A stretch of DNA of 58,552 bases from contig DASXUJ010000085.1 of assembly GCA_036504895.1 (NCBI GenBank), forward strand, positions 1 to 58,552. Direction: 5' to 3'. The DNA is from Syntrophorhabdaceae bacterium (GTDB lineage: Bacteria > Desulfobacterota > Syntrophorhabdia > Syntrophorhabdales > Syntrophorhabdaceae). Below the pieces are notes generated by a model, which saw only the letters and a list, made by a program, of their open reading frames with translations, had not been told where the DNA came from and searched no databases. Shown in pieces: positions 7,761-25,507 of this stretch (position 1 is the stretch's first letter; each line of letters opens with the position of its first letter). The translations under genes and the position numbers were made by a program.

Positions 7761-7782
7761 AAAACCTAAAAGCCCTTTGAAG

Positions 7783-7890: not shown

Positions 7891-7904
7891 AAAGGAGGAA
7901 AATA

Positions 7905-8246: not shown

Positions 8247-8250
8247 AGCA

Positions 8251-8390: not shown

Positions 8391-8394
8391 ATCA

Positions 8395-8654
8395 CTTTTT
8401 GGGTTAACAAAAAGCGATAATTGTTACTCGTACCTACCAAGGTCTCACGCAGACGTGGCGACCGTAACTTACCCTCATCGACCCCGAGGGAAACTCAACA
8501 GCGTAGTTCAAATCAGTCAAAGAGATTATAGACTGGGGGGCTGAACATTCAGCCCCGGAGATAAGGGTGTGCCGCTCATCATGAGGCGATCCTGTGCCGT
8601 AGAGGCGAGGGGACCACACTTTTATCCTCCACAAAATTACCCGGAGGTGACTTG
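8395..8654 (+). promoter_or_regulatory. Structured leader of amtB2
   Basis: This gene-free stretch holds a CCCTC/GAGGG hairpin (8472-8490), the 15-mer GTTCAAATCAGTCAA (8506-8520) and a perfect 8-bp hairpin GGGGCTGA-ACAT-TCAGCCCC (8537-8556), then a further imperfect stem before the ribosome site. The motif ACTTACC, the CCCTC/GAGGG hairpin and GTTCAAA-x-CAGTCAA recur in the same order before glnN, which suggests a shared cis-regulatory RNA or operator. I match it to no riboswitch family. Confidence 0.5.
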
Positions 8655-10007
8655 GTGAGGAAGGTCGTATTTGTGTTGGTGCTGGTGATGGGTCTCCTGA
8701 TCGCAGGGGTCTCGCTCGCTCAGAATTCGGAAGTAGTGCCCCCTATGCAGACAGTGGCGGCGGGTGCGGCGTCATCCCCTATCGATACGGGGGATACTGC
8801 CTGGATGCTCGTATCCATAGCTCTGGTGATGCTCATGACGCCTGGGCTCGCATTTTTTTATGGGGGTATGGTGCGGCGCAAGAACGTGCTCGGGGTCCTG
8901 ATGCAATGCTTTATTGCCCTGGGCCTGATTACGGCGCAGTGGATCCTCTTCGGGTACAGTCTCTCCTTTGCGCCCGCGAAAGGTTTCTGGGGCGGCCTTC
9001 AGTGGATGGGTCTGAGCGGGGTCGGCTCCATGCCGTTTAAAGAGTATGCCCCCACCATTCCCCACGAAGCCTTCATGATGTTTCAGGCCATGTTTGCCAT
9101 AATCACACCGGCCCTTATCATCGGCGCCTTTGCGGAGAGGATGAGGTTCGCGGCCTTCGTGATCTTCAGCATCCTCTGGGCGACCTTTATCTACGACCCA
9201 ATCTGCCATTGGATGTGGGGCGTGGGGGGATGGCTCAGGGAGATGGGCGCCCTCGATTTCGCGGGTGGAACGGTGGTGCATATCAACGCGGGCATGGCGG
9301 CCCTGGTGGCTGCCCTCGTAATAGGAAAACGGGACGGGTATATGAACAGACCGGTCCCGCCCCATAACCTGCCCTTTACCGTCCTCGGCACCGCGCTCCT
9401 CTGGTTCGGCTGGTTCGGGTTCAACGCGGGAAGCGCCCTCGGCGCGAACGGGCTTGCGGTCCACACCCTTGTCGTGACCCACACGGCCGCGGCAATCGCG
9501 GGGATCACCTGGGCATGCCTCGAATGGGTATTCAACGAAAAGCCGACCATATTCGGCACGGTCACCGGATCGATCGCGGGACTCGCCACCATTACACCCG
9601 CATCGGGATTCGTGACAATCGCCGCGGCGGCGCTTATCGGATTCGCCGCGAGCGTGGTCTGTTATGTCTGCGTGGCCCTCGTAAAGCCGAAGTTCGGATA
9701 TGACGATTCTCTTGACGCCTTCGGCGTCCATGGAGTAGGCGGCATCCTCGGCACTCTCGCGGTAGGCATTTTCGCCTCGAAAGCGGTCAACCCCGCGGGA
9801 GCGGACGGGCTGCTCTACGGAAACCCGAAGCAGCTTCTCATCCAGCTCATAGCCGTGGCAGTGACCATGGGATACAGTTTTATCGGAAGTTACATTATAC
9901 TTAAAGTAATCGACCTGTTCTTAAAGGTAAGAGTGGGCGAGAGAGACGAAATAATAGGCCTCGACCTCACCCAGCACCATGAGAATGCCTATACAGTGCT
10001 CGAGTAA
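8655..10007 (+). CDS. amtB: Ammonium transporter AmtB (copy 2)
   Basis: A 450-residue AmtB paralogue of the upstream copy: signal peptide, 11 membrane segments, and both pore histidines (VVHINAG and FGVHGVGG). The tail (LDLTQHHENAYTVLE) is almost the same as that of copy 1, whereas the N-terminal spacer is shorter and differs. GTG at 8655 is preferred over the TTG at 8652 because it lies 7 bases from GGAGG. The duplicated cassette suggests differential expression of two channels with two PII proteins; the leaders in front of them differ completely. Confidence 0.95.
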   Translation: MRKVVFVLVLVMGLLIAGVSLAQNSEVVPPMQTVAAGAASSPIDTGDTAWMLVSIALVMLMTPGLAFFYGGMVRRKNVLGVLMQCFIALGLITAQWILFGYSLSFAPAKGFWGGLQWMGLSGVGSMPFKEYAPTIPHEAFMMFQAMFAIITPALIIGAFAERMRFAAFVIFSILWATFIYDPICHWMWGVGGWLREMGALDFAGGTVVHINAGMAALVAALVIGKRDGYMNRPVPPHNLPFTVLGTALLWFGWFGFNAGSALGANGLAVHTLVVTHTAAAIAGITWACLEWVFNEKPTIFGTVTGSIAGLATITPASGFVTIAAAALIGFAASVVCYVCVALVKPKFGYDDSLDAFGVHGVGGILGTLAVGIFASKAVNPAGADGLLYGNPKQLLIQLIAVAVTMGYSFIGSYIILKVIDLFLKVRVGERDEIIGLDLTQHHENAYTVLE

Positions 10008-10155
10008 GGCGTTAAGGCGGGTGATGTGGGTGAAGCGTGTAAAGCGTGTAAAGAGGAAATCGGAAAAGGTGTAATGGGAAAACGAGATGCGTGTAATGCG
10101 TTAAAAGCGAAAATCGGAAAACGTGTAATCGGAAAACGAGGATGCGTGTGAAATG
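10008..10155. repeat. Degenerate octamer array after amtB2
   Basis: A longer version of the array after amtB1. GCGTGTAA is repeated around 10034-10051, and GTGTAAT alternates with GGAAAACG through 10062-10140. The words are the same as after amtB1, but their number and order differ, so this is not a simple copy of the first intergenic region. Confidence 0.7.
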
Positions 10156-10193
10156 TTGAGTGAAAGGACTGAAGAGACATTTTGTCCCACGTG

Positions 10194-10317
10194 CCGTAGC
10201 TCGCACAGCGAGCGAGAAGGGGAGGCTCCACGGGCTTGGCCCGTGGAGGGGGCGACGCAAGCCCCATTGATAGTGCGACGTGAGCCCCAATAATTGTGGA
10301 CGCGAGCCCCATTAAAT
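10194..10317. repeat. Mosaic palindromic element, copy 2 (A-C-D-D-D)
   Basis: Module A (GCTCGC-ACA-GCGAGC) and module C (TCCACGGGC-TTG-GCCCGTGGA) are followed by three successive versions of module D (GCGACGCAAGCCCC, GCGACGTGAGCCCC, GACGCGAGCCCC). Module B is absent. It occupies the same place as copy 1, between amtB and the PII gene. Confidence 0.8.
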
Positions 10318-10335
10318 TGTGCAAGGAGGAAAATA

Positions 10336-10677
10336 ATGAAACTGATCATTGCCATAATAAAACCGGACAGGCTTGAAGCGGTAAAACAGGAGCTTTATAA
10401 GCGGGATATAAACCTCATGACCGTGAGCGAGGTTCTGGGTCATGGTCGGCAGATGGGTGTGACTGAAATTTACAGAGGGGCAAGGGAGATGGGGAACCTC
10501 CTCCGGAAAATCCGTCTCGAGATCGCGGTAAACGAGGATTACATGGAGACTACCATCGAAGCGATTGTAAAAGGCGCACAAACGGGCGAAGTGGGAGACG
10601 GCAAGATATTCGTCCTCGAACTCGCCGAATGCGTCCGGATCCGAACGGAAGAAAGGGGTCGGAAGGCAATCGGGTAG
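10336..10677 (+). CDS. glnK: PII nitrogen-regulatory protein (copy 2)
   Basis: A 113-residue PII protein very close to copy 1 (same start KLIIAIIKPDRLEAVKQEL, same T-loop RGAREMGNLLRK, B-loop TGEVGDGKIFVL). Glu again replaces Tyr51, so both paralogues lack the classical uridylylation site. Differences cluster around residues 22-32 and 74-80. ATG at 10336 follows a strong AAGGAGG; an in-frame extension upstream runs into the repeat element and is rejected. Confidence 0.95.
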   Translation: MKLIIAIIKPDRLEAVKQELYKRDINLMTVSEVLGHGRQMGVTEIYRGAREMGNLLRKIRLEIAVNEDYMETTIEAIVKGAQTGEVGDGKIFVLELAECVRIRTEERGRKAIG

Positions 10678-10803
10678 AAGCAGTCGTTAGTATATAGTAT
10701 ATAGTCGTTAGTAAAAGACATACTGACTCATGGAAGTGGCCACGTGGCGGAAAGCGCCCGACAGACACCTTTGTTTCGACTATAGACTATATACTGGTTA
10801 ATG
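10678..10803. repeat. Inverted heptad array after PII copy 2
   Basis: Right after the PII stop: CAGTCGT, TAGTATA, TAGTATA, TAGTCGT (10680-10712), then after a GC-rich hairpin-like centre the inverted words CGACTATAGACTATATACTGG (10777-10797, given here as one 21-base arm with its last base optional). The layout matches that after PII copy 1, but the words are mostly TAGTATA instead of TAGTCGC. Confidence 0.7.
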
Positions 10804-10844
10804 GAAGGCGGTTAACGTATTGAAAGATTTTTTTACTTGTAGTA

Positions 10845-10950
10845 TGGTACTTACCATAACCCGCACAAAGAAGTGCGTGAACGTCATGACCCTCGCCGGC
10901 CTTAGAGGGTTGTTCAGGCAGATCGAACGACGCCGTTCAAAGCAGTCAAC
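10845..10950 (+). promoter_or_regulatory. Structured leader of glnN
   Basis: The 490 bases between PII copy 2 and glnN carry no credible gene. ACTTACC (10849-10855) is followed by CGCAC-AAAGAA-GTGCG (10862-10877), a 5-bp stem with a six-base loop having A at position 1 and G at position 4. Next come a CCCTC/GAGGG hairpin (10890-10909), a GAACG/CGTTC hairpin (10925-10938) and GTTCAAAGCAGTCAA (10935-10949). The hexaloop matches the A1/G4 pattern of ANTAR-bound antiterminator RNAs, but the second hexaloop and a downstream terminator are not evident. No -24/-12 promoter is seen. Confidence 0.4.
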
Positions 10951-11172
10951 GTCTTATGACTCGTACGAATTAATTTTTATCGAGGTGAAAGAGGATAAGA
11001 TTTTTGTTCCCCAAGCCTTGAAAGGAAAGACCTTGCGGTCCGGCATCAGTCCCTCGGTTTTCAGGGATGGTCCCGGGTACGCGAAAAAGGAATCAATGTT
11101 CCGTATTGTATCCTTTCCCATTCAAGGGAGAGGTAAGATATAGGGGTACATATTCCACACATGGAGGAAAGT

Positions 11173-13269
11173 ATGGAGCTTACAGAAGTCTTCGGTTCTA
11201 ATGTATTTAATGACAAGGTGATGAAAGAGCGGCTGCCCAAGCAGATATATAAGGCGCTGAAAGAGACGATCGACAAGGACATACCTCTTAGGCCTGAAGT
11301 CGCCGATGTCGTGGCGAATGCGATGAAAGATTGGGCTATCGAGAAGGGGGCCACCCATTACACCCATTGGTTCCAACCCCTCACAGGGATTACTGCTGAA
11401 AAGCATGATTCTTTCATATCTCCTGCCCCGGACGGCAGTGTAATCCTCGAGTTTTCCGGAAAACAGCTCATCCAGGGCGAGCCGGATGCCTCTTCCTTCC
11501 CGAGCGGCGGCCTGCGAGCCACCTTCGAGGCCAGGGGATATACCGCATGGGACTGCACGTCGCCGGCATTTCTCAAGACCGATGAAGCGGGCAATGTGAC
11601 CTTCACCATCCCCACCGCCTTCTATTCTTATAACGGCGAAGCCCTCGACAAGAAGACTCCTCTGCTGAGGTCCATGACGGCGGTCTCCAAGCAGGCATTG
11701 CGCGTTCTCAGGGCACTCGGAAATAAGGCCTCCGCCAAGGTCACCGCTACCGTAGGCCCGGAGCAGGAATATTTTCTGGTCGATAAGAAGTTCTACCTCG
11801 ACAGGCTCGATCTCATGCTTGCGGGAAGGACCATCTTCGGCGCTCCCGCCCCTAAGGGTCAGGAGCTCGAGGACCAGTATTTCGGCTCCATCAAGGACAG
11901 GGTCTCCGATTATATGAACGACCTCAATATGGAGTTGTGGAAGATGGGTATTACTTCGAAGACCCAGCATAACGAAGTGGCCCCTGCCCAGTATGAGATG
12001 GCCCCTATTTTCGGCACCACCAACATTGCGACGGACCACAACCAGCTCGTGATGGAGACCATGCAGAAAGTGGCGCTGCGCCATGACCTCGTGTGCCTTC
12101 TCCATGAAAAACCGTATGCAGGCATTAACGGCTCCGGTAAGCATAACAACTGGTCTCTTTCCACCGACGACGGCCTCAATCTTCTCGAGCCCGGCAACAC
12201 TCCCGGCGAGAACGTCCAGTTCCTTCTTTTCGTGAGCGGCCTCATCAAAGCCGTCGATCTCCACGCGGACATCCTGAGGGCGACCTGCGCAACCGCGGGC
12301 AACGATCACCGTCTCGGCGCAAATGAGGCGCCTCCCGCCATTATCTCCATTTTTATGGGCGAGGAGCTGACGGGAATCCTGGAAAAAATCGCAAAAGGCG
12401 AAAAGATCACCACGAAAGACGCCCAGTTCGTAAAGGTGGGCGTGGATACGCTGCCCCCCATCCCCAAGGACAATACGGACCGGAACAGGACCTCTCCTTT
12501 CGCCTTTACAGGTAATAAATTCGAATTCAGGATGGTCGGCTCGGCCCAGTCGGTCGCGGGATCGAATGTGGCGCTCAACACGATCGCGGCAGAGGCCTTC
12601 GATGAAATCGCCACCCGCCTCGAAAAAGCAAAAGACAAGAATGCCGAGGCAGCGGCTATCATCAGGGATATCTATAAGAAACATAACCGCATCATCTTCA
12701 ACGGCAACAACTATTCCGACGCCTGGGTAGTCGAAGCCGAGAAGAGGGGGCTTCCCAATGTGAGGAATTCCGTGGATGCCCTCAAGGCCTTCGTCACCAC
12801 CAAGGCACTTAAACTTTTCGAAAAATATGAGGTCTTTATCCCGAAGGAACTCCATTCCCGTTATGATGTGTATGTGGATGCCTATTCAAAACAGATCAAT
12901 ATCGAGGCCATGGTGGCAATCGACATGACGAAGCGGCAGTTCCTGCCCTCAGGCCTCGAATATGCCACCTTTCTGGCAGATTCCATCGCCACTTTCAAGA
13001 GTCTGGCGGTCAGCGCGTCCGTGCAGGCGGATATATTGAAGAAGCTCAACGGCGTGCTCTCATCGGCCTACAAGAACATGGCGAAGCTCGAAGGCGCCGT
13101 CGCCAAGGCTCAGGCAACCGGGGACGTGGCAAAGCAGGGCGAGGCTTACCGCGACAAGGTATTCCCCGCCATGCAGACCCTCAGGGCAGACGTGGATGCC
13201 ATGGAGCTGATGGTGCCGAAGGACATGTGGCCGGTACCGACCTACGCCGACCTCCTGTTTAAACTGTAA
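11173..13269 (+). CDS. glnN: Type III glutamine synthetase
   Basis: A 698-residue GSIII-family enzyme (much longer than the roughly 470 residues of GSI) that condenses glutamate and ammonium with ATP. Recognisable segments are [10 protein letters not shown], the PIFGTTN region, [18 protein letters not shown] with the ammonium/glutamate site, and [10 protein letters not shown] near the middle, followed by the long C-terminal helical region of GSIII. ATG at 11173 follows GGAGG by 5 bases; the ATG four codons earlier overlaps that site. It completes the nitrogen island with amtB and PII. No adenylylation-type regulation is expected for this family. Confidence 0.96.
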
Positions 13270-14031: not shown

Positions 14032-15000
14032 TTATTCGATCTTCTGCCACGTCTTATCGGGGTCGAATTTCTCGATCTTCGTGGCGATCTTTCCCGTATT
14101 TTTCCCGAGATTTTTCTGATAGACCACTCCATTCTGGTTGACCATAAAGGTCATGATCCCCGAGGAGCCATACCTTGCCGGATATGCCACCATGGCAAAT
14201 CCACCGAGCATATTACCATCGAGTATGTAACTGAAGGTCCCTCCCGATGCGTTCTTCCCCTGGGCGAACAGTATTTTGTAATAGTAGCCGTGGTAGGGCA
14301 CGCTCTTCTCTCCCGGCTTCGGGGATGAGTAGCCTTCGGCCCTCGCGGCTGCCATAAGGGGGCCGAGGGGGCTCGGTTCTTCGCCTTCCTTTGCATCCCA
14401 GTAGAGTCCGTCCTTTTTTCCCGGATCGCTCAGGAACTTTTGGGCGTATTCAAAAAGCCCGTCCCGGTCGAGGTCCCTGAGGGCAAATTCCCTCTGGGCA
14501 TCCACGTAGGCGAGGCACACCTGGATCACGTTAAGCTCGTTGCGGCCTATCCTCCTGTCGATCATCTCCCGGCGGCCGGCCCTGGTGTCGAAGACCCATG
14601 AATTACCTCTCTTCACCACGGGGATGGCGAAAGGCCAATCTTCACTCCCTACGTAAAGCAGGGCCTTTCGGTCGCCCACTTTTTCTATACGGTTTTTTTC
14701 ATCGTATCCCTTCAGGAACCGCTCGCGCTGGAGCCGGTCGTCCACCTCGTCGCCTGAATTGATGAGATCGGCATTTCCCCGGCCGTATATGGCGACAAGG
14801 GTTTTCCGGTCATGGGCCTTCAGGGCTTCCACCATCGCCTTGACCGCCTCCTCGGGAGAGGAGAAATGTCTCTGTTTTGTTTCCTTCCCATAAGCGGCCG
14901 AAGTATGAAGAAGGGAAAAGGCCAGGATAAAAGAGAAGAGAAAAGCGAAACTGACAAGGAGCGCGAGTCCCCGATTTCCATGTCGAACCGTACGAATCAT
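14032..15000 (-). CDS. DUF2950 exported protein
   Basis: A 322-residue protein with an N-terminal signal/anchor (hydrophobic ALLVSFAFLFSFILAFSLL) followed by the DUF2950 domain: FSSPEEAVKAMVEALKAHD, RERFLKGYDEKNRI, and the late motif YHGYYYKILFAQG. ATG at 15000 follows GGAGGAATTGCCAT; an in-frame extension of 11 residues is possible. It lies just downstream of a DUF3300 gene, and the two families are very often neighbours, so they probably act together in the envelope. The biochemical function is unknown. Confidence 0.85.
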   Translation of the reverse strand: MIRTVRHGNRGLALLVSFAFLFSFILAFSLLHTSAAYGKETKQRHFSSPEEAVKAMVEALKAHDRKTLVAIYGRGNADLINSGDEVDDRLQRERFLKGYDEKNRIEKVGDRKALLYVGSEDWPFAIPVVKRGNSWVFDTRAGRREMIDRRIGRNELNVIQVCLAYVDAQREFALRDLDRDGLFEYAQKFLSDPGKKDGLYWDAKEGEEPSPLGPLMAAARAEGYSSPKPGEKSVPYHGYYYKILFAQGKNASGGTFSYILDGNMLGGFAMVAYPARYGSSGIMTFMVNQNGVVYQKNLGKNTGKIATKIEKFDPDKTWQKIE

Positions 15001-15048
15001 ATGGCAATTCCTCCTACCGTTATTTGAGACCAATCTTTTGAATATCTT

Positions 15049-16416
15049 TTAGCGGTGTCCCCCGCCGCCTCCGCCGCCGACGTGACCTCCGCCGCTGTGA
15101 CCTCCACCGCCTCCGGCAGGTGATCCTCCGCTACCCGCGGGTCTTCCGCCGCCTCCGCCGCCTCCGGGGGCACGACCCATGCCGCCTCCTCCTCCGCCTG
15201 GAGGACGACCGACGGCACCTCCGCCACCTCCGCCCATGCCGGGCGGACGGCTCATGCCCGGGCCTCCGGGTCTTGCCGCACCGGCCGGCGGACGGCTCAT
15301 GCCGGGCTGACCGGGTTGGCCCATCCGTCCCGTTCCCGAGGGACGACCGGGGCTCATGCCCGTTCTCGGCGAAGTCACTGCTTCCCGGCTCTGACGGCCC
15401 CGCTCACTCTGGATCTGCGCGTTACGGCCGCTCACACCCGGAGCGCCGGGTCTGCCCGGCGCGGACGGACGTCCTCTGAAGTCTGCGGTATGTCCCGGCA
15501 CGCCTCTCGGTCCCTGACCGTATCTTTGAGCGGTCCCCATGTCTCTGTATGCGACTCCGCGCCTGTGAACCGCGTCGTGGTGCCACGCGCCACGTCCTCC
15601 GCCTCCATAGCGATTGACGTAGACATTGCGGTTTATGCGATGATTAAATCCCACGTTCTGATATACGTTCAGGCCAACGTGATGGTGCCGCCATCCGAAG
15701 CCTCCCCAGGCCCATCCCCAGGCAGCCCCCAGGGCGACCCCTATGCCGAAAGAGATGATACCGCCCACTATCACGGCCCCGACAGGGTAGTACGGGTAAG
15801 GGGGATAGTCCGGATACCACCACGGACCGTAGACGACCATGGGGTCATAGACAGGCACGTACACCACCTGGGGCTCTACGGGTTCAATCACGATGGCCGG
15901 CCCCTCGGTGATCACCCTCTGTTGGGCCGTGTTGGTGAGCGTACCCTGTGCCTGCGCCGCGGCCCTTAGTTTTTGCACCGTATCCATGACCTGGTCCTTC
16001 TGGCTCAGGAATGCATCACCAAGTCTTTGGGTCCAGTCCAGCCTCTGGTCCATCATGGCCAGGACGGAGGGGAAATTCGCCAGCGACTTTACGCTGGGGT
16101 CCCACGGCTGCTGGTCCAGGGCGGTTGCAAAGGCGTCTCCCTGAAGCTGCCTGTTGGCGCCGAGCCAGCGGTTCGCCTCCACAATCTCGATGGGATAGGT
16201 AGCGGCCATAAACACCTGGACGAGGAGCGAATCGGGATAGAGTGCGATCGGTGCGAGCATCTGATCGAGCTCTTCCTGCCTGAAAAGCGGCGGGGGAGAT
16301 GTTTCTCCCTGTGGGGGAGGAGGAATCTCGGAAGGCTGAGAGAATACCCCCTGGGGAACCGCGATGAGTAGCACAAGGAGCCACACGAGTGTTCTGACAC
16401 ATATTTTTAGGGTCAT
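15049..16416 (-). CDS. DUF3300 exported protein with Gly/Pro/Arg-rich tail
   Basis: A 455-residue protein with a signal peptide (LVWLLVLLIAVPQGVFS) and a DUF3300 domain: LDQMLAPIALYPDSLLVQVFMAATYP, then NRWLG and QQPWDPSVKSL. A Gly/Ala-rich hydrophobic stretch follows (VGAVIVGGIISFGIGVALG), then a long low-complexity tail of Gly runs with Pro, Arg and Met (about 310-455). The tail is disordered and probably surface or periplasmic. A ribosome site AGAGGAGAG precedes the ATG, and it is cotranscribed with the DUF2950 gene 48 bases downstream. Function unknown. Confidence 0.87.
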   Translation of the reverse strand: MTLKICVRTLVWLLVLLIAVPQGVFSQPSEIPPPPQGETSPPPLFRQEELDQMLAPIALYPDSLLVQVFMAATYPIEIVEANRWLGANRQLQGDAFATALDQQPWDPSVKSLANFPSVLAMMDQRLDWTQRLGDAFLSQKDQVMDTVQKLRAAAQAQGTLTNTAQQRVITEGPAIVIEPVEPQVVYVPVYDPMVVYGPWWYPDYPPYPYYPVGAVIVGGIISFGIGVALGAAWGWAWGGFGWRHHHVGLNVYQNVGFNHRINRNVYVNRYGGGGRGAWHHDAVHRRGVAYRDMGTAQRYGQGPRGVPGHTADFRGRPSAPGRPGAPGVSGRNAQIQSERGRQSREAVTSPRTGMSPGRPSGTGRMGQPGQPGMSRPPAGAARPGGPGMSRPPGMGGGGGGAVGRPPGGGGGGMGRAPGGGGGGGRPAGSGGSPAGGGGGHSGGGHVGGGGGGGHR

Positions 16417-16794
16417 AGTCTCTCCTCTTTACAGAATATTGCCCTGTTTCAGGATTGTCCATCCTTCTGCGGAGGATATTGATGAGTGGTCGATGGTCGA
16501 TGTTTTCCCGTTTCCGATCATACCAAAGCATAATCCTCCGAAGAGAGGTCGGTCAAGGCTTTCTTTCCGGTCGACCGGCCATGGGCCGACGTGGGGACCG
16601 CGCGGTTACCACGTCCAAAGGTCACATAACTTGTAAGAATATAGGAGCGGAAATAAGTAACGACGAGTGGGTCCGCTATTTCCGTTCCGGGCTTTGAACC
16701 GAAGTCCGGTGGACATGTTCGGCACGGGGCGTCATCCCCGATAGATGCACAAATAGTCCCTTTAAGGGACATGGGGCGGCAAAGGAGGTTGAAG
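16417..16794. other. Divergent intergenic region
   Basis: These 378 bases separate the DUF3300 gene (minus) from the amidotransferase gene (plus) and should hold both promoters. A good hairpin pairs GGAGCGGAAATA (16644-16655) with TATTTCCGTTCC (16677-16688) with one mismatch. No clear -35/-10 pair or gene is seen. Confidence 0.5.
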
Positions 16795-17562
16795 ATGAAG
16801 AGGAAGATACTTATCACCAAGCACATAGAAAAAGAAGGGGGAGGTCTTATTGAGGACTTCTTCAGAGAGGACGGCTGGGATGTGGCCGTTGTCGAGTTGG
16901 GGAAGGGGGAGGAGCTGCCGGACTCGATCGACGAATATGGGGCGGTTTTTGTCATGGGCGGTCCCATGAATGTCTACGAAACATCGCCTTATCCCTTTCT
17001 TGAGAAAGAAGAACGTGTGATCCGGAAGTGCCTTATCGCGGAAATCCCTCTTCTGGGCATCTGTCTGGGAGCTCAGCTGCTCGCGAAGACATGCGGGGCG
17101 AGAGTGAGGAAGGCGAATCATAAGGAGATCGGCTGGTACAGGCTTTCCCTTACCGAAGAGGGCACGGAGGACGAGCTGTTCAAGGGGCTGTCCCGCACAC
17201 TGAATGTGTTTCAATGGCACGAGGACACCTTCGAGATACCCCACGGAGGAACTCTGCTGGTCCACGGAAGAATCTGCAGAAATCAGGCATTCAGGGTCGG
17301 CCGGAACGCCTACGGCCTCCAGTTCCACCTTGAAGTCACCGCTGCGATGATCGAGGAATGGCTGAAGGACGAGCCCGATAAGGTCATGGGGCAACAAATT
17401 CTGAGCGACGGGGCCATGGGGTATGGGGAATTCGAGGCCCAGGCCCGTAAATTTCTCTCCAATTTTAAGGACCTTATCGAGTCCTCGCTGAGGAAGAGAA
17501 ATATCATGGACATATTTACGGAGGATGAGTTGGGGAAGAAACAAGAGTCCTTCGCCGGTTAA
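16795..17562 (+). CDS. Class I glutamine amidotransferase (GuaA-N-like)
   Basis: A 255-residue stand-alone amidotransferase domain resembling the N-terminal half of GMP synthase. The nucleophile is Cys90 in LLGICLGAQLLAK, the oxyanion region is VMGGPMNVYE, and the catalytic His-x-Glu is in QFHLEVT. FQWHEDTFEIPHG matches the family. ATG at 16795 follows AAAGGAGG by 7 bases. There is no synthetase domain, so it either hydrolyses gamma-glutamyl compounds or supplies ammonia to an unlinked partner. It precedes the mvhD-metVF promoter, so it is likely a separate transcript. Confidence 0.85.
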   Translation: MKRKILITKHIEKEGGGLIEDFFREDGWDVAVVELGKGEELPDSIDEYGAVFVMGGPMNVYETSPYPFLEKEERVIRKCLIAEIPLLGICLGAQLLAKTCGARVRKANHKEIGWYRLSLTEEGTEDELFKGLSRTLNVFQWHEDTFEIPHGGTLLVHGRICRNQAFRVGRNAYGLQFHLEVTAAMIEEWLKDEPDKVMGQQILSDGAMGYGEFEAQARKFLSNFKDLIESSLRKRNIMDIFTEDELGKKQESFAG

Positions 17563-17629: not shown

Positions 17630-17659
17630 TTGACATAGGTCATAATATGCTGTTACAAT
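17630..17659 (+). promoter_or_regulatory. Sigma-70-type promoter for mvhD-metVF
   Basis: TTGACA (17630-17635) and TACAAT (17654-17659) are spaced by 18 bases, a near-consensus promoter. Transcription would begin near 17666 and meet the attenuator within 40 bases. Confidence 0.7.
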
Positions 17660-17702
17660 AATAGCCGATTCGGCACAACGGGGTGCATGATCAGAAGAGA
17701 CG

Positions 17703-17730
17703 AAGGCGTCCGGGAAGGGACGCCTTTTTT
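17703..17730 (+). terminator. Terminator/attenuator in the mvhD leader
   Basis: AAGGCGTCC (17703-17711) pairs with GGACGCCTT (17718-17726) around GGGAAG, followed directly by TTTT. It lies between the promoter and the first gene of the operon, so most transcripts would stop unless something prevents folding. An ATG at 17687 with a short frame running through the hairpin could be a leader peptide. Confidence 0.75.
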
Positions 17731-17763
17731 CATCAAGGACGAAAAATTAAGAAGGGACGATTT

Positions 17764-18183
17764 ATGGATCAAAAGAGCGCCGGACTTAACATTTCCATCT
17801 TTTTCTGCCAGCAGTTGGACCCGGAGCAGGACACGCACAGGCGAAGTCTTGAAAAGGAGCTGGGAGGGGGGATAAAATTTTTTCCCCTGCCCTGCAGCGG
17901 CCGGATCGACCCGCTTCACCTTATGAGGGCCCTGGAGGCGGGGGCGGACATGGTCTACCTTGTCACATGCCCGGAAGGGGCCTGTCGTTATCGTGAAGGT
18001 AATACCCGCGCTGCCAAGCGCCTCGCCTATACCCAGGGTCTTATCGAGGAGATCGGGCTTGAGCGGCAGCGCCTCGAGCTGGTCGTAACTACGGCGGACT
18101 CACCGACCACGGTAGACGCCCTCGCCAAAGCATTTCTCGCCCGGGAAGCGTGCGTCGGGCCTTCTCCTGTGAGGGGAAAATAG
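17764..18183 (+). CDS. MvhD/FlpD-type electron-transfer (hydrogenase iron-sulfur) subunit
   Basis: A 139-residue member of the MvhD/FlpD family, small [2Fe-2S]-type proteins that pass electrons between a dehydrogenase or hydrogenase and HdrA-like flavoproteins. The conserved cysteines are visible in IFFCQQ, PLPCSGRID and the VTCPEGACRYREGN motif. ATG at 17764 follows AGGGA; the longer frame from 17683 runs through the terminator hairpin and is rejected. It is the first gene of the mvhD-metV-metF set. No hdrA occurs in the window, so its flavoprotein partner may be one of the glutamate-synthase-like proteins downstream (inference). Confidence 0.88.
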   Translation: MDQKSAGLNISIFFCQQLDPEQDTHRRSLEKELGGGIKFFPLPCSGRIDPLHLMRALEAGADMVYLVTCPEGACRYREGNTRAAKRLAYTQGLIEEIGLERQRLELVVTTADSPTTVDALAKAFLAREACVGPSPVRGK

Positions 18184-18224: not shown

Positions 18225-18893
18225 ATGATAACAGCCGAAAGAAAGCCTTTAACAGAGATCAAGGAGATGATCGCGCCTTACAAGAAGATCCTGGTGGTCG
18301 GGTGCGGAAGCTGCGTGGCCGAATGCGCAGCGGGAGGAGAGAAAGAGACGGGGCTGCTTGCTTCGGCGCTTCGCATGGACGCCAAGGCATCAGGCCGCGA
18401 GATCGAAGTGAAAGAGATGACCCTCGACCGTCAGTGTGTCTATGAATTTATAGATCAGCTGACCGAGGTGATCGATCAGTTCGATGCCGTCCTCTCCTTA
18501 GGGTGCGGCGCGGGCGTGCAGGCGGTTGCCCGGGTTTTCCCCAAGGTGCATATCGTCCCCGCCCTCAATACCACTTTTATCGGAGAAACCAGGGAAGCCG
18601 GTGAATGGGTGGAAAATTGCCGGGCCTGCGGCGACTGTAAGCTCGGCTTCTTTGCCGCCGTATGTCCCGTCACGCGTTGCGCAAAAGGACTTTTCAACGG
18701 TCCCTGCGGCGGGTCGAAAACCGATCGCTGCGAGGTCGATCCTGATACCGAATGCGCGTGGCAGCTCATCATCACGAGACTCGATGAAATGGGCCGCCTT
18801 GACCTCCTCCGAAAGGTTCATCCCCCTGCGGATTGGTCGAAACAGCAGGGAAAGGGACCGAGGAAAATCCATAGGGAGGACCAGAACACGTGA
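18225..18893 (+). CDS. metV: MetV-type zinc/iron-sulfur partner of methylene-THF reductase
   Basis: A 222-residue protein of the methylenetetrahydrofolate-reductase C-terminal (MetV) family. The cysteine pattern is C27-G-S-C30-x3-C34 at the start, then CRACGDC and CPVTRCAKGLFNGPCGG in the C-terminal part, consistent with metal or FeS binding. In acetogens MetV forms a complex with MetF and is needed for electron delivery to it. The 4-base overlap with metF and the mvhD gene 41 bases upstream support a three-subunit enzyme. Confidence 0.9.
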   Translation: MITAERKPLTEIKEMIAPYKKILVVGCGSCVAECAAGGEKETGLLASALRMDAKASGREIEVKEMTLDRQCVYEFIDQLTEVIDQFDAVLSLGCGAGVQAVARVFPKVHIVPALNTTFIGETREAGEWVENCRACGDCKLGFFAAVCPVTRCAKGLFNGPCGGSKTDRCEVDPDTECAWQLIITRLDEMGRLDLLRKVHPPADWSKQQGKGPRKIHREDQNT

Positions 18894-19813
18894 AAACTGA
18901 AAGCCAGCTCAAAAAGGTTCTTATGGGAGGACATTTCGCCGTTACCGCCGAGTGCGGTCCCCCCAAAGGAGCCGATCCCGAGGCAATAATAAATAAAGGA
19001 AAGGTCCTCAAGGGCCATGTGGACAGCGTCAATGTCACCGATAACCAGACGGGAGTGGTGCGTCTTTGCAGTCTGGCCGCCTGCGCGATACTGAGGGCGG
19101 AAGGGCTCGATCCCGTGCTCCAGATGGTCACCCGTGACCGTAATCGCATTGCCCTTCAGTCGGACGTGCTCGGGGCATCGTCCCTGGGAATCCGCAATAT
19201 CCTTTGCCTTTCCGGCGACCATCAGTCTTTCGGCAACCAGCCCCATGCAAAGGGAGTCTTTGATATCGATTCGATTCAATTAGTCCAGACGGTCCGCAGG
19301 ATGAGGGACTTAGGCGAGATCATCGGCGGCGATAAACTCTCCGACGGGCCGGACCTGTTTGTGGGCGCCGTGGCGAACCCCTTTGCGGACCCGTTTAAAT
19401 ACAGGGTAACGAGATTGGCAAAAAAGGTGGACGCGGGAGCGGAGTTCGTTCAGACCCAGTGCGTCTACAACCTCGCGCGGTTCAAGGAGTGGATGGGCCT
19501 CGTGAAGGATTACGGTCTCGAGAAAGAGGTCTTTATCCTGGCAGGCATTACTCCGTTGAAATCAGCCCGCATGGCCGAGTACATGGCAAAGCAGGTGGCG
19601 GGCATGGACGTGCCCGAGGCGATCATCGACCGCATGAAAGGGGTGGCCGCAAAAGAGCAGCGCGCGGAAGGCGTGAAAATTGCGGTGGAGACCATCGAGG
19701 CCCTGAAGCAGATGGAAGGGGTGAGCGGGGTCCATATTATGGCAATCGAGTGGGAGGACGTGGTTCCCGGGCTTGTCGAGAAGTCCGGCCTTCATCCCAG
19801 ACCCCTGATCTAA
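18890..19813 (+). CDS. metF: 5,10-methylenetetrahydrofolate reductase
   Basis: A 307-residue FAD-dependent TIM barrel that reduces methylene-THF to methyl-THF, or the reverse in methyl oxidation (Wood-Ljungdahl direction is undecided). It shows VTAECGPPKGADP, DSVNVTDNQ, LCLSGDHQSFGN and the late FILAGITPLKSARM. The start is GTG overlapping the metV stop. The NADH-binding eukaryotic extension is absent, and the MetV/MvhD neighbours imply ferredoxin or another low-potential carrier as electron partner. Confidence 0.95.
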   Translation: MKTESQLKKVLMGGHFAVTAECGPPKGADPEAIINKGKVLKGHVDSVNVTDNQTGVVRLCSLAACAILRAEGLDPVLQMVTRDRNRIALQSDVLGASSLGIRNILCLSGDHQSFGNQPHAKGVFDIDSIQLVQTVRRMRDLGEIIGGDKLSDGPDLFVGAVANPFADPFKYRVTRLAKKVDAGAEFVQTQCVYNLARFKEWMGLVKDYGLEKEVFILAGITPLKSARMAEYMAKQVAGMDVPEAIIDRMKGVAAKEQRAEGVKIAVETIEALKQMEGVSGVHIMAIEWEDVVPGLVEKSGLHPRPLI

Positions 19814-19850: not shown

Positions 19851-21233
19851 ATGCCCCTTAAATATCATATCCAAACCGGCCAGGCGCCGAACAGGTTTCA
19901 ATCGATCACCCGGTCGGGTGTTATCGCATGGGAAGAAGGGTGCCTCAAGTGCGCCCGTTGCGTAAAGAAAGAATGCGTCTACAAGGTATACGAGAAGCGC
20001 GGTATCGATTCACGCCAGATGCTCGAATCCCTGGACAGCATGTGCAAGGACTGCTTCCGCTGTGTGCAGAACTGTCCCAACAGGTTGATCCAGAAAGGGC
20101 TCAACCCCAGCTTCAAGGTCTTGGGCGACGCCTATTGGACGCCGGAGATCATTGCCGCTCTCTGGTCTCAGGCGGAGGCGGGGAAAATACCCGTTTCCGG
20201 CGGAGGATACGGCGGGGCCTTCTCCGGCCCCGGCTACGATTCAATGTGGACCGACATGTCCGAGATCGTCCGCCCCACGAGAGATGGAATACACGGCCGT
20301 GAATATATCAGCACCACCGTCGATCTGGGACGCAAGGTGATGGCCCTTCAATTCGACGAAGCAGGGGCGCTCCTCACCGAGACGCCGCCCCTGGTGGAGA
20401 TACCGCTGCCGCTCATCTTCGATATACTCCCCTGGTCACCGCCGAGGGCGCGCATCACCATGGCCTTCCTCGAGGGGGCGAAAAGCCTCGGCACCTTTGC
20501 CGTAGTCCGTCAGACCGATTTCAAGGACGATATGGCGGGCTACCTTTCCCACATCATGCTCCTTCTTGACGGGAATTTGGATGACCTCGACCCCGCAATG
20601 GTTAAAAAACTGCGCCTGATAGAGGTCCCTTATACGGGAAAAGCCCTGGAAATCCAGGCGAAACTGAAGGAAATAAATCCGGATATCGTCGTCGCCATAA
20701 GGCTCGCGCTGGGGCCCGACGCCTCCGAGACCGTCTATCGCCTCACTGTGGACGGGGCGGAAATAATTCATCTCATGGCAGACGAATTTGGCAGGGAAAG
20801 GGGCGAAAACCCTCTTTTTGTAAAAGACCGGACCAAGGAGATTCACCTCAGCCTCGTGGAGCGGGGCGTGAGGGACCGGATCACGCTTATCGTGGGTGGA
20901 GGGATCGCCATGGCCGAGCACGTGGCAAAACAGATCATCTGCGGCGCCGATGCGCTTACCGTCGATATACCTCTGCTCGTGGCCATGGAATGCAGGGTGT
21001 GCCGGCGCTGCAAGGAAGGCATCGACTGCCCCGTCGATCTTCACGAGGTGAATCCCGCGTGGGGCGCAGCCCGGATCCGCAACCTCATCTCGGGGTGGCA
21101 CAGTCAGCTCCTCGAGACATTGGGGGCCATGGGTATCCGCGAGGTAAGGCGGCTTCGTGGGGAAATGGGCAGAGCCATGTTTTTCGAAGATCTTGAAAAA
21201 GAAATTTTCGCCGGAATGGGCAAAAGGGGTTGA
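19851..21233 (+). CDS. Ferredoxin plus degenerate glutamate-synthase-like protein
   Basis: 460 residues. The N-terminus binds two likely [4Fe-4S] clusters: C31, C34, C37, C42 and C65, C68, C71, C75 (CKDCFRCVQNCPN). The rest has the outline of the glutamate synthase FMN barrel (ITLIVGGGIAMAEHVAKQII, ALTVDIPLLVAMECRVCRRC). It lacks the barrel motifs present in the next gene: GGMSFGS, TGEGG, QGAKPG and GGTGAAP have no counterparts. It therefore looks like a non-catalytic paralogue that may have an electron-wiring or structural role. A good ribosome site (AAGGAG) and a 37-base gap from metF put it in the same operon. Confidence 0.8.
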   Translation: MPLKYHIQTGQAPNRFQSITRSGVIAWEEGCLKCARCVKKECVYKVYEKRGIDSRQMLESLDSMCKDCFRCVQNCPNRLIQKGLNPSFKVLGDAYWTPEIIAALWSQAEAGKIPVSGGGYGGAFSGPGYDSMWTDMSEIVRPTRDGIHGREYISTTVDLGRKVMALQFDEAGALLTETPPLVEIPLPLIFDILPWSPPRARITMAFLEGAKSLGTFAVVRQTDFKDDMAGYLSHIMLLLDGNLDDLDPAMVKKLRLIEVPYTGKALEIQAKLKEINPDIVVAIRLALGPDASETVYRLTVDGAEIIHLMADEFGRERGENPLFVKDRTKEIHLSLVERGVRDRITLIVGGGIAMAEHVAKQIICGADALTVDIPLLVAMECRVCRRCKEGIDCPVDLHEVNPAWGAARIRNLISGWHSQLLETLGAMGIREVRRLRGEMGRAMFFEDLEKEIFAGMGKRG

Positions 21234-21237: not shown

Positions 21238-22758
21238 ATGGCAAGCGAATCACAAAAATACACATTTCCTGAAACTAAACCGGTGCCGAGCCGCTTCCGC
21301 AATGCCCTCGGCAAATATAAGGTCCGCATAAGCAAGGCGTGCACCAACTGCGGGATCTGCATAGAGACCTGCCCCCACGGGGTCTATAAACCGGGCGTAA
21401 AGAGGCCGAGACCCCTGAGGGACCATCTCTGCCTTGGCTTTTCCTGTAATAAATATGAATATTGCTGCGTGGGCAAGTGCCCCGAAAAGGCCATAGAGGT
21501 AACCGTCAACCCCTCTTTCGAGATCCTCGGCGATAAGCGGTGGCCGGCCGACCTTCTCGCCGGCACCTGGCATATGGCGGAGACCGGAGGTCTTCCCCAC
21601 CAGGATTTGAATTATAAGACAGGGGAATCCGGAGGAGGGTTCGACAAGCTCCGTTTTGTCTTTCCCAAAGGCAAGGTTCGGGAGCCGGCCGATGAAGAGG
21701 TCTCTACCGCCATCGAGTTGAACCGCTCCGGCGATTCGAGGCCGAAGATCACCATTCCCGTCCCCTTCTACCTTGGGGGCATGTCCTTCGGCTCCGTAAG
21801 CATCGTGACCATGCTCTCCCGCGTCAGGGCTGCGAGCGCCCTCAACACCTTCTGCTGCACGGGCGAGGGCGGGTACCCGGAAGAGCTCATCCCTTATGAC
21901 GACCATATTATTACCCAGGTTGCCACCGGCCTCTTCGGGGTGAGGGAGGAGACCATAAAGCGTGTGAGGATCGTGGAGTTTAAATACGCCCAGGGCGCCA
22001 AGCCCGGTCTCGGCGGCCACCTCCTCGGAGACAAGGTGACCCCCCGTGTCGCGGCGATGCGAGAGGCCGTGACGGGAAGCGCGCTCTTTTCGCCTTTTCC
22101 CTTCCACAGCGTCTATTCCGTTGAAGACCATAAGAAGCACGTGGACTGGATCAAGGAGATGAACCACCACGCCCTCGTGTCCGTCAAAGTATCCACCCCC
22201 ACGGACGTGGACATGGTAACGGTGGGCAGCTACTTTGCGGGCGCCCATATCGTTCAGCTCGATGGAAGTTACGGCGGTACGGGTGCGGCGCCCGATATCG
22301 CCAAAAAGAATATCGCCATGCCCATAGAGTATGCCCTGCCCAAGGTACATAAGTTCCTGAGCGAGGAAGGCATCAGGGATAAGATCACGATTATCGCCAG
22401 TGGGGGCATACGCTCCGCCTACGATGTGGCTAAGGCGATCGCCATGGGCGCCGACGGCGTCTGTCTGGGTACGGCCGATCTCGTGGCCCTTGAATGCATC
22501 CGCTGCCACCATTGTGAATCGGGTCGGGGCTGCGCGCGGGGCATTGCCACCACGGACCCCGAGCTGACGGGTCTTATGGAGCTTGACTGGGCGACCCAAC
22601 GTATCGTCAACATGTACCTCGTGTGGCGTAGGCAGCTCGTATCGATCCTCAAGCGGTTCGGGATGAAAAGTATTACGGAATTGACCGGGCGCTTCGATGC
22701 CATCGCACACCTCGATTATTTGAAAGAGGGAGAGATAGACGGAGTATTGGATTTATAA
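21238..22758 (+). CDS. Ferredoxin-containing glutamate synthase FMN-domain protein
   Basis: 506 residues. The N-terminal ferredoxin part has CTNCGICIETCP and a second set in CLGFSC...CCVGKCP. The FMN barrel is complete with FYLGGMSFGS, CTGEGGYPEEL, QGAKPGLGGHL, QLDGSYGGTGAAP and IIASGGIRSAYDVAKAIAMG, as in archaeal-type split glutamate synthases. It would convert glutamine-derived ammonia and 2-oxoglutarate to glutamate. ATG at 21238 begins 5 bases after the upstream stop; a longer in-frame version would overlap that gene by 77 bases and is not favoured. The partner amidotransferase is encoded next. Confidence 0.88.
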   Translation: MASESQKYTFPETKPVPSRFRNALGKYKVRISKACTNCGICIETCPHGVYKPGVKRPRPLRDHLCLGFSCNKYEYCCVGKCPEKAIEVTVNPSFEILGDKRWPADLLAGTWHMAETGGLPHQDLNYKTGESGGGFDKLRFVFPKGKVREPADEEVSTAIELNRSGDSRPKITIPVPFYLGGMSFGSVSIVTMLSRVRAASALNTFCCTGEGGYPEELIPYDDHIITQVATGLFGVREETIKRVRIVEFKYAQGAKPGLGGHLLGDKVTPRVAAMREAVTGSALFSPFPFHSVYSVEDHKKHVDWIKEMNHHALVSVKVSTPTDVDMVTVGSYFAGAHIVQLDGSYGGTGAAPDIAKKNIAMPIEYALPKVHKFLSEEGIRDKITIIASGGIRSAYDVAKAIAMGADGVCLGTADLVALECIRCHHCESGRGCARGIATTDPELTGLMELDWATQRIVNMYLVWRRQLVSILKRFGMKSITELTGRFDAIAHLDYLKEGEIDGVLDL

Positions 22759-22837: not shown

Positions 22838-25507
22838 ATGAAAGAGAGAAACAGAGGTGAATCCATACTGAATGCGCGCGCCCATCTCCGGGGTCCCGCA
22901 AACCGGGCCGACGCGGGTATCGAGGCGGAGGAAGGCGGCTGCGGCGTTACCGGGTTCGCCTGTAATATTCCCGTGAGCGGCCGTCATATCTTCGAGCCTT
23001 CCGTGCAGATGCATAACAGGGGCAACGGCAAAGGGGGCGGCCTTGCCGCGGTAGGACTCGTCCCGGAGAAACTGGGCGTCTCCAGGGAGATCCTGGACAG
23101 CGATTTTCTCCTCCAGGTGGCGCTCCTCGACGAAACCGTGCTGCCCGAGGTGGAGGCGCGATTCGTGAGGCCCTTCTTCCGCGTCGACCACGAATCTTTC
23201 ATCGATTCGATAGACGACTACCGGGACATTCCAGGCCTCGAAGTGAAGCCGCCCCAGGTAAAGAGGTATTTCGTGCGGGTGAAGCCGGAAGTGATCGAGA
23301 TTTTCCGGAAGGAGCGGGGGCTCACATCGATCCCCCTCCACAAGGTGGAAGAGGAGTTCATTTATCAGAACACCTATCAGCTCAACCGCACCTTTTACAG
23401 CTCCCTGGGTGAGAAGAGGGCTTTTGTTCTCTCCCACGGCAGGGATATGATGATCCTGAAGATCGTCGGGTATGCCGAGACCGTGGCCCAGTATTATAAG
23501 CTGGAGAATTTCAACTCCCATATCTGGATCGCCCATCAGCGCTATCCGACGAAAGGCCGGGTATGGCACCCGGGCGGGGCCCATCCTTTTATAGGGCTCG
23601 ACGAAGCCCTGGTCCATAACGGGGATTTCGCCAATTACTATTCCGTCTCCGAATACCTCAAACAGCGGAACGTCTATCCCCTGTTCCTTACGGACACGGA
23701 AGTTTCGGTCCAGGTTTTTGACCTCCTGAACAGGGTATACGGCTACCCCCTCGAATATATCATCGAAGCCCTCGCCCCTACGGGAGAGATGGATTTCGAT
23801 CACCTGCCAGAAGAGAAGCAGCGCATTTACCGGCAGATCCAGGCGGCCCACATTCACGGGAGCCCCGACGGACCATGGTTCTTCATCATTGCCCGGACCG
23901 ACGTGGAGAAGAAGCAGTACCAGCTTATCGGCATCACCGATACGGCCATGCTCCGGCCCCAGGTTTTTGCCCTTCAGAAAGGGGACGTGGAGATCGGGCT
24001 CATCTGCTCCGAAAAACAGGCCATAGACGCGACCCTCGTGAGCCTCGCGAAAGAGGACCAGAGGTTCGGCACCGTGGCGGACCGTTACTGGAATGCCCGG
24101 GGAGGGAGCTACACCGACGGCGGCGCCTTTATATTCACCGTAAAAGAGTCGGAGCCGGGGAAAATGGACCTGACGTGCACCGATAAATTCGGGCGAGTGA
24201 TAGATGTGCCCGCGGACCGGCCCCACCTCGATTTCCGTGCAAAATTACCCCGCACCCCCACGTGTCACGTGGACCACCTGAGGAGCATCGTCAGGGACCT
24301 CTCGAAGAAAAACGTGGAGGAGCTTTTCTTTACCCTTAAGCCGGGATTGGCCAAGTGGGATTATGCGCGCTTTTATACCTTCCTTGACCTCCTCACCGCA
24401 CTGGCCGAGGAAGACGACCTGAAAGGTCCGGTTCTGGGGCTCCTGAGCCGCCTTCTCGACAGGCATTATCCGATCGGCGCCAAGAGACGCCGGTCCGTGC
24501 TCCAGATGATCTCCCAGACCATCGACTCCATCCTGAGGGCCATCCCGCTCCTCAATGCCAAAGGCAACGTACTCTACGGCCGCAGGATTGACTGGGAGAA
24601 CCGCGCTACCCTGCGCGCGCCCGAAAAAGGGGAGCGTGTACTGGTGGCCGATGCGGGCGGGTTCCCGCCCGAGGGCGATGAGTCTTATTCAAGCCTCATA
24701 TCGAGCGCATACAATCTGGGCTGGAAGCGGTTCATCTGCTTCGGTCACCGGGGCCAGCGCTTTCTGGGCTGCGGCTTCGGGCCCGATTCGAAAGGCGTGC
24801 GTATCGACGCCTTCGATTCAACGGGCGATTATCTCGGCTCAGGTATGGACGGTCTCGAGATACACGTACACGGCAACGCCCAGGACCAGCTGGGCCAGAT
24901 ACTTAAATCAGGCAAGCTCGTGGTCTACGGCGACGTGGGCCAGACGTTCATGTATGGGGCTAAAGGCGGAGAGGTATACGTCCTCGGCAATGCAGCGGGA
25001 AGGCCCCTTATTAACGCGGTAGGTAAGCCGAGGGTCGTGATCAACGGCACCGCCCTCGACTTTCTTGCCGAATCTTTTATGGCCGGCGATCCCTACAACG
25101 GCGGAGGCTTCGTGGTTTTGAACGGCCTCGCCTTCGACGAGGAAGAACGGGTGGTCTCCCTGAAGACGCCCTATCCGGGGTCGAACCTCTTCTCCCTCGC
25201 ATCGGGGGGCGCCATATTCGTGAGAGACCCTTATAAGACTATTGTTCCCGAGCAGTTGAACGGGGGACAGATCCTTCCTTTCGAGGAGAGGGATTGGGAG
25301 CTTATCCTGCCCTATCTCAAAGAAAACGAGCGCCTCTTCGCGGTCTCGATAGAAGAGGACCTGCTTATGGTGGATGGGGTGAAGAGGAGTCCGGCGGAAG
25401 TCTACCGGACCATCACCGCGGTCAAGCTGTCCGTGCTCTCCGGCGCGGCCGCAGCCCTCGCCATGAACGAAGAGTGGGAGGAAGAGGACGAGGAAGAGAT
25501 AGATTAG
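22838..25507 (+). CDS. Fused GATase class II and GXGXG glutamate-synthase protein
   Basis: 889 residues. The N-terminal class II amidotransferase carries a GGCGVTGF motif with Cys35 as candidate nucleophile, which requires removal of a propeptide of about 34 residues as in GltB. Substrate-site segments MHNRGNGKGGG, QRYPTKGRVWHPGGAHPF and LVHNGDFANYY follow. After a helical linker (about 470-600), the GXGXG beta-helix domain occupies about 640-800 (GYLGSGMDG-like region, GAKGGEVYVLGNAAGRP). Archaea usually encode these two parts separately, so this is a fusion. The C-terminus is strongly acidic. It completes a glutamate synthase with the preceding protein. Confidence 0.87.
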   Translation: MKERNRGESILNARAHLRGPANRADAGIEAEEGGCGVTGFACNIPVSGRHIFEPSVQMHNRGNGKGGGLAAVGLVPEKLGVSREILDSDFLLQVALLDETVLPEVEARFVRPFFRVDHESFIDSIDDYRDIPGLEVKPPQVKRYFVRVKPEVIEIFRKERGLTSIPLHKVEEEFIYQNTYQLNRTFYSSLGEKRAFVLSHGRDMMILKIVGYAETVAQYYKLENFNSHIWIAHQRYPTKGRVWHPGGAHPFIGLDEALVHNGDFANYYSVSEYLKQRNVYPLFLTDTEVSVQVFDLLNRVYGYPLEYIIEALAPTGEMDFDHLPEEKQRIYRQIQAAHIHGSPDGPWFFIIARTDVEKKQYQLIGITDTAMLRPQVFALQKGDVEIGLICSEKQAIDATLVSLAKEDQRFGTVADRYWNARGGSYTDGGAFIFTVKESEPGKMDLTCTDKFGRVIDVPADRPHLDFRAKLPRTPTCHVDHLRSIVRDLSKKNVEELFFTLKPGLAKWDYARFYTFLDLLTALAEEDDLKGPVLGLLSRLLDRHYPIGAKRRRSVLQMISQTIDSILRAIPLLNAKGNVLYGRRIDWENRATLRAPEKGERVLVADAGGFPPEGDESYSSLISSAYNLGWKRFICFGHRGQRFLGCGFGPDSKGVRIDAFDSTGDYLGSGMDGLEIHVHGNAQDQLGQILKSGKLVVYGDVGQTFMYGAKGGEVYVLGNAAGRPLINAVGKPRVVINGTALDFLAESFMAGDPYNGGGFVVLNGLAFDEEERVVSLKTPYPGSNLFSLASGGAIFVRDPYKTIVPEQLNGGQILPFEERDWELILPYLKENERLFAVSIEEDLLMVDGVKRSPAEVYRTITAVKLSVLSGAAAALAMNEEWEEEDEEEID

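Follow-up and report, generated by a model that had tools for sequence, protein, structure and literature searches.

The window analysed here is a stretch of 58,552 nucleotides from a Syntrophorhabdaceae genome (G000). It carries an operon in which a 460-residue protein, termed D in the following, stands directly in front of a glutamate synthase subunit. The features of the locus are:

6298-13269, plus strand: nitrogen island with two amtB ammonium transporter genes, each followed by a P-II gene (7905-8246 and 10294-10677), and a type III glutamine synthetase gene (GSIII, 11161-13269)
16771-17562, plus strand: class I glutamine amidotransferase-like ORF upstream of MvhD, of uncertain membership in the system
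17683-18183, plus strand: MvhD/FlpD electron-transfer subunit, listed with a GTG start, although translation may truly begin further in
18225-18893, plus strand: MetV (DUF5981), methylene-THF reductase subunit
18890-19813, plus strand: MetF, a methylene-THF reductase; two genes of the MTHFR family were found in G000, this one included
19851-21233, plus strand: D, a predicted non-catalytic GltB2-like subunit of 460 aa with a dicluster ferredoxin, a degenerate FMN-synthase barrel and a C-terminal CxxCxxC(5)C motif
19941-20075, plus strand: the two 4Fe-4S motifs of D (C31-C42 and C65-C75), invariant in every aligned D
20190-20315, plus strand: D-specific segment (residues 114-155), highly conserved, partly of low model confidence, a possible docking loop
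20991-21029, plus strand: C-terminal Cys motif of D (C381, C384, C387, C393), a probable 3Fe/4Fe-4S site
21238-22758, plus strand: B2, FMN-synthase subunit of 506 aa with intact GltS motifs
22838-25507, plus strand: B13, class II glutaminase fused to a GXGXG domain (C35, N261-G262, D286)

Genes for DUF2950 and DUF3300 proteins (14032-16416, minus strand) lie between GSIII and the glutamate synthase operon. ORFs like the one at 16771-17562 recur upstream of MvhD at other loci (L037, L039, L042, L044, L059, L061, L063, L064, L067, L068 and L138). A scan for promoters and terminators gave totals at chance level (5 vs 4.4 and 10 vs 10.5); a TTGACA-18-TACAAT site is located at 17630-17659, before MvhD.

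D starts with ATG and consists of an N-terminal dicluster ferredoxin (C31, C34, C37, C42 and C65, C68, C71, C75; Pfam Fer4_10, residues 28-76) followed by a barrel that Pfam Glu_synthase matches at residues 330-428 only (E 1.2e-11, profile positions 262-367 of 369). BLASTP aligned D with B2 nearly end to end at 25% identity, and in hhalign the D profile matched B2 with an E-value of 1.2e-47. Together with the GltS-like predicted fold, this match places the relationship between the two proteins far beyond chance level. The initial annotation had described D as a glutamate-synthase paralogue that kept its ferredoxin clusters and C-terminal cysteines and lost active-site motifs which are all present in the next gene. 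This description was correct: GGMSFGS, TGEGG, QGAKPG and GGTGAAP are missing from D and all four are kept in B2, while the eight ferredoxin cysteines and C381-C384-C387-C393 are found in D. Around QGAKPG, about 44 residues are deleted, and this stretch is missing from essentially all D proteins. A comparison of D with a phage family library gave no match.

The predicted structure of D, which had been proposed as a check on its identity, reached a pLDDT of 87.4 and a pTM of 0.86, with most of the barrel above 90. Its best fold matches are the FMN domains of GltS (Z 24-26): the top seven solved structures were all glutamate synthases (Z 24.0-26.2), led by 7mfm_G (Z 26.2, 320 residues, rmsd 3.6) and 1ea0 (Z 25.9, 312 residues, rmsd 3.4), and were followed by IMPDH and flavocytochrome b2 (Z of about 22). 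An origin of D from an unrelated barrel family is ruled out both by this ranking and by the PF01645 match of 69/69 D members. Within the segment 114-155, residues 116-119 and 137-148 fell below 50 in the model, and this stretch might become ordered only on a partner. The model of a natural D/B2 fusion was too poor to read its geometry (pLDDT 73, pTM 0.67).

To follow the losses across the family, we used a joint alignment of 79 D sequences (78 distinct) and 75 B2-type sequences, the latter including L077 and L078, both archaeal-type synthases of genomes without D. A D that is split into two ORFs (L057) was excluded from the 78. All eight N-terminal cysteines are present in 79/79 D sequences, and the active-site motifs are lost in 79/79. 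The columns that are invariant in B2, namely M182, S183, G209 to G212, K249, Q252 to G257, D342 and G346 to A351, are either substituted or missing in D, G347 (B2 numbering) being the only one that is mostly still Gly (63/79). In the late phosphate-type loop, which we take to be the FMN phosphate-binding loop, the position of B2 G411 is occupied by Asp in 67/79 and by Glu in 6/79 D sequences. An acidic residue at this place should repel the FMN phosphate, and FMN binding has presumably been lost in D. The C-terminal CxxCxxC(5)C motif is complete in 67/79 sequences, the D of the window among them, and incomplete in 12/79. The incomplete motifs are found in 10/16 rows with a GlcD-type upstream partner vs 2/59 rows with MvhD (L049 and L119).

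D is under purifying selection that is as strong as that on B2. For the pair L067/L068, counted substitutions gave a dN/dS of about 0.04 for D and about 0.05 for B2, and two other D pairs gave 0.06-0.07; these values are rough because synonymous change is so high.

D is also widespread. At E<=1e-30 it was detected in 107/395 genomes sampled from the phylum, among them seven genomes of family f10 in which the D sequence forms part of open frames of about 1,500-2,570 aa. Among 60 relatives it was found in 36, the genome of the window included; four more relatives matched the D search through ordinary synthases only. A contig scan yielded 23 D loci, including Methanomassiliicoccaceae, other archaea and Nitrospiria, as well as one Chitinivibrionales locus with a partial D. 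The phylum sample and the set of relatives gave at least 126 D-positive genomes, and the 78 distinct D proteins examined were spread over families rather than drawn at random. In a tree of 166 rows, calculated by a quick method with SH-aLRT supports and without bootstraps, the 78 D form one clade (support 100) and 70 cassette B2 form a separate one (support 100). D and B2 together are split from 16 further synthases together with L077 and L078 at a support of 97, over a branch so short (0.011) that the sister relation of D and B2 is not secure. As distinct, fully supported clades across bacteria and archaea, D and B2 go back to an ancient duplication. The proposal that a tandem duplicate had turned into a non-catalytic Fe-S subunit is therefore supported family-wide as far as the change of role is concerned, but the duplication is ancient and not local. 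Decay of a recent tandem copy is ruled out by conservation, tree and dN/dS. Two further synthase-like paralogues of about 565-576 aa (L040:15719-17413 and L048:16211-17938) fall outside the D and B2 clades of the tree, and the one from L040 has intact GSMS, GEGG, QGAKPG and GGTGAA-type motifs together with N-terminal ferredoxin sites.

The partners of D are constant: B2 and B13 downstream, and either MvhD or a GlcD-type dehydrogenase upstream. B2 follows D wherever the contig is long enough and B13 nearly always does, appearing as broken ORFs in some loci (L042, L130, L133). B2 matches Pfam Glu_synthase over profile positions 55-368 (E 3.2e-91), its FMN-synthase motif columns are conserved, and its top four matches among solved structures are the glutamate synthases 7mfm, 1ea0, 2vdc and 6s6s (about 315-322 residues, E 4e-48 to 1.3e-46). 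In B13, the glutaminase residues C35 and D286 are each present in 60/60 sequences, N261 and G262 lie in columns conserved at >=95%, and the GXGXG domain is matched by PF01493 (E 1.3e-12). D and B2 form a single chain of about 975-1,000 aa in 13 aligned sequences. The largest fusion, L127:4969-12567, is one chain of 2,533 aa that unites FAD_binding_4, Fer4_8, D, B2, GATase_6 and GXGXG; the L128 chain looks alike by its blastp labels, and L075 has a shorter fused chain with a separate B13. Both proteins of about 2,500 aa (L127, L128) and the L075 chain are encoded between glnA and carA. Gene fusion is strong evidence that D and B2 belong to one complex and that this complex can include the GlcD module.

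Upstream partners were counted on the same strand within 5.5 kb of D, or in the same protein, for the 78 distinct D. MvhD was found in 59/78, a GlcD-type partner in 16/78, both in 0/78 and neither in 3/78, two of the last being at contig edges (L126, L130) and one not (L135). On the D tree, MvhD and GlcD were exchanged in one change (SH-aLRT 98). The GlcD-type partner combines an FAD_binding_4 with a Fer4_8 domain; of the solved structures, the lactate dehydrogenase subunit LctD matches it best in sequence (7qh2, E 2e-23). The MvhD-type loci contain MetV in 45/59 and MetF in 41/59 cases and neither of them in 11/59; in the commonest gene order, MetV and MetF lie between MvhD and D. The initial annotation had placed D next to metF, and in the window MetF indeed ends 37 bases before the start of D, but across the family MetF is a frequent and not a constant partner (41/78).

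Cassette MetF proteins keep E21 in 46/46, Q190 in 45/46 and D110 in 40/46 sequences, positions which we take to be catalytic by analogy to E. coli MetF. Diverged cassette MetF proteins occur at L063:7201-8328, L064:8792-9700 and L103:8790-9740; the catalytic-type Glu is kept and the region around GDH varies. The cassettes of L063 and L064 have no MetV. Judged from these sequences, the three proteins may no longer reduce methylene-THF. At least one extra MTHFR-family match elsewhere in the genome was found in 24/27 relatives with a cassette MetF, G000 included, and was missing from G014, G033 and G045; four relatives with the GlcD-type partner (G005, G016, G026, G034) have one MTHFR-family match each. 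In G000 and G002, the other MetF is clustered with an HdrA-like protein of about 1,500 aa, MvhD and MetV. The G000 cluster (contig C99; L163:8552-15100, minus strand) encodes an HdrA-like protein of 1,492 aa with MvhD, MetV and MetF and resembles a type IV methylene-THF reductase cluster. With this second MvhD-MetV-MetF set beside HdrA, the set in the window looks dedicated, D-B2-B13 standing in place of Hdr.

A PF01645 scan of G000 returned B2 (E 1.2e-91), D, a weak partial match on contig C97 (25 bits) and nothing else, which leaves B2 as the sole strong Glu_synthase match of this genome. G000 further has two glutamine synthetase matches, of which GSIII of the window is one, and a single strong GDH-type match. 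Among the 60 relatives, a synthase match of canonical strength (E<1e-120) was found in 0/36 D-positive genomes, and the five relatives with such a match (G054, G055, G056, G058, G059) are all without D. Nine D-negative relatives have a distant type only (E of about 1e-60) and ten have none at 1e-30; the D-positive relatives G022, G030 and G036 have a distant synthase type as well. Outside the 60 relatives, G192 (L114) and G428 (L158) carry D plus a long canonical-type GltB, and a further synthase of archaeal type is present in 4/6 of the archaeal genomes with D that were tested. B2 shares about 30-36% identity with the archaeal-type and long canonical-type synthases used for comparison. Within 5.5 kb upstream of D, glnA was present in 23/78 loci.

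Like the NADPH-dependent GltBD, the D-B2-B13 set has glutaminase, FMN-synthase and GXGXG parts and an Fe-S chain to FMN; unlike GltBD, its genes are split and it includes a dead FMN-barrel subunit with a ferredoxin domain of its own. None of the seven operon proteins is a GltD-type NAD(P)H/FAD subunit (no Pyr_redox family match). The Fe-S wire of canonical GltS is described in PMC8097209; the N-terminal domain of GltD, which provides it there, would be the counterpart of D. The archaeal-type split synthase, with separate GATase, Fer4-FMN-synthase and GXGXG proteins, has the same domains, and like D its synthase subunit bears an N-terminal dicluster ferredoxin (D profile against L077, E 5e-37). 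The D cassette differs from it by the fusion of GATase to GXGXG, by the addition of D and by the donor, MvhD(-MetVF) or GlcD. With the type IV methylene-THF reductase (HdrCBA-MvhD-MetVF) the window shares MvhD-MetV-MetF in the same order, but D-B2-B13 is found where that enzyme has HdrCBA; none of the seven operon proteins is Hdr-like, and the Hdr-linked copy with HdrA lies elsewhere in G000 (G000:C99). F420-dependent glutamate synthases, which according to PMC9012536 join FrhB-like subunits to GltS parts, likewise combine such parts with a non-GltD donor; compared by description only, they differ in that this donor is an F420 oxidoreductase. D itself has the fold and the C-terminal cysteines of a GltB2/FMN-synthase subunit and lacks the FMN/2-oxoglutarate motifs, which makes it no catalytic member of that family.

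Taken together, D, which many anaerobic bacteria and some archaea carry, is an ancient, strongly conserved Fe-S part of a glutamate synthase. The reading that we favour, with a probability of roughly 65%, is that this glutamate synthase is modular and can exchange its donors, methyl-THF being the likely one here, and that D serves it as scaffold and as the subunit where electrons enter. The sequences show an intact glutaminase site in B13, an intact FMN/2-oxoglutarate synthase site in B2 and, in D, a barrel that bears Fe-S but has no active site. Glutamine would be hydrolysed by B13, and the ammonia would pass to B2 to form 2-iminoglutarate, which would be reduced to glutamate. The electrons would reach B2 via the two 4Fe-4S clusters of D (and the C-terminal cluster where it is kept), D taking the place of the GltD Fe-S domain, and the protein feeding D would be exchangeable between a GlcD-type FAD/Fe-S dehydrogenase and MvhD. 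The parts, the state of their sites, their fixed linkage and the exchange of partners are seen directly, whereas the contacts between the subunits, the path and direction of the electrons, the absence of FMN from D and methyl-THF as the donor are what we infer from these data. Since the window MvhD has its own MetVF beyond the HdrA-linked one, methyl-THF (about -200 mV) is the likely electron source for glutamate synthesis. Through D, the enzyme is probably connected to uncommon sources of electrons, the folate one-carbon pathway for example. A pull-down from Sporomusa ovata, in which tagged MvhD brought down HdrA and MetF (PMC9430772), counts in favour of this reading.

A bolder version of this proposal, which we put forward only tentatively, is a methyl-tetrahydrofolate:glutamate synthase, in which a dedicated MvhD-MetVF oxidises methyl-THF and the electrons run through D without NAD(P)H, so that the one-carbon pool would be coupled directly to nitrogen assimilation. 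It would belong to a wider class of enzymes in which D is a shared socket for donors near -200 mV, either methyl-THF or 2-hydroxyacids via GlcD. The methylene/methyl-THF couple is given as -200 mV in PMC8760232. Canonical GltS has its centres at about -190 mV or lower, and its [4Fe-4S] clusters are estimated at <= -360 mV (PMC8097209), so a donor at -200 mV would need retuned clusters.

Alternatively, D takes its electrons from MvhD and MetVF consumes them in parallel, in which case one low-potential source would supply both methyl-THF synthesis and glutamate synthase by way of MvhD, together with HdrA or a different donor. We consider this unlikely, although the 11/59 MvhD loci without MetV or MetF within 5.5 kb and the partly diverged MetF proteins indicate that MetVF may share MvhD rather than feed D. 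HdrA also lies near the cassette in several loci (e.g. L099, L103, L104), and type IV methylene-THF reductases have been proposed to use HdrCBA-MvhD (PMC8760232). However, the window operon has no HdrA, its MetVF is extra to the HdrA-linked copy, and the commonest arrangement has MetV-MetF separating MvhD from D.

It is distinctly improbable that D is mainly structural, lining the ammonia tunnel and positioning B2 like the central domain of GltS, with clusters that are architectural. In favour of such a role, the best Pfam matches of B2 and B13 include no central domain beyond weak barrel similarity, D is N-terminal to B2 in the fusions just as the central domain is to the FMN domain, and Glu_syn_central was detected at E<=1e-3 in 17/69 D members. 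PMC8097209 describes that domain as a truncated barrel whose origin is open and may lie in the FMN barrel. The similarity is weak and non-specific, however, as D matches the central domain at E 2e-5 and archaeal-type GltB2 does so at 3.5e-9, and the eight ferredoxin cysteines are invariant in D. Three central domains were compared, one of them partial, and orthology of D to this domain found no support in them beyond this weak, non-specific match.

There is little reason to expect a product other than glutamate, such as an N-substituted glutamate or the amination product of another oxo-acid. Relatives of this architecture make N-methylglutamate, which counts for such a product together with the modest identity of B2 to the synthases compared (only about 30-36%). 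Against it stand B2 as the only strong synthase match in G000, the context of glnA, carA, amtB and P-II, and the intact glutaminase site. That D is merely a degenerating gene can be dismissed: every catalytic motif is gone, but dN/dS is about 0.04-0.07 in close pairs, internal stops are missing, the losses are identical in every lineage and the cysteines are invariant.

The component pieces are of known kinds; what appears to be new is the dead GltB2 twin as the defining subunit and the exchange of donors. In the open-access literature, as far as its text was available, we found no description of a dead GltB2 paralogue or of a glutamate synthase joined to MvhD-MetVF. The same partial coverage yielded none of an exchange of GlcD for MvhD(-MetVF), the nearest case being the F420-dependent clusters (PMC9012536).

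If our preferred reading of D as an electron-entry subunit is true, this would be a type of glutamate synthase that uses a dead paralogue of its catalytic subunit as an electron socket, and one cassette would switch between two unrelated donor modules. In D, the truncated-barrel central domain of canonical GltS would have a parallel that is encoded by a gene of its own. The cassette would account for glutamate synthesis in anaerobes without canonical GltB. If MetVF is the donor, one-carbon oxidation would directly cover the cost of assimilating nitrogen, and at a potential cheaper than that of NADPH or ferredoxin; this would be relevant to energy-limited anaerobes.
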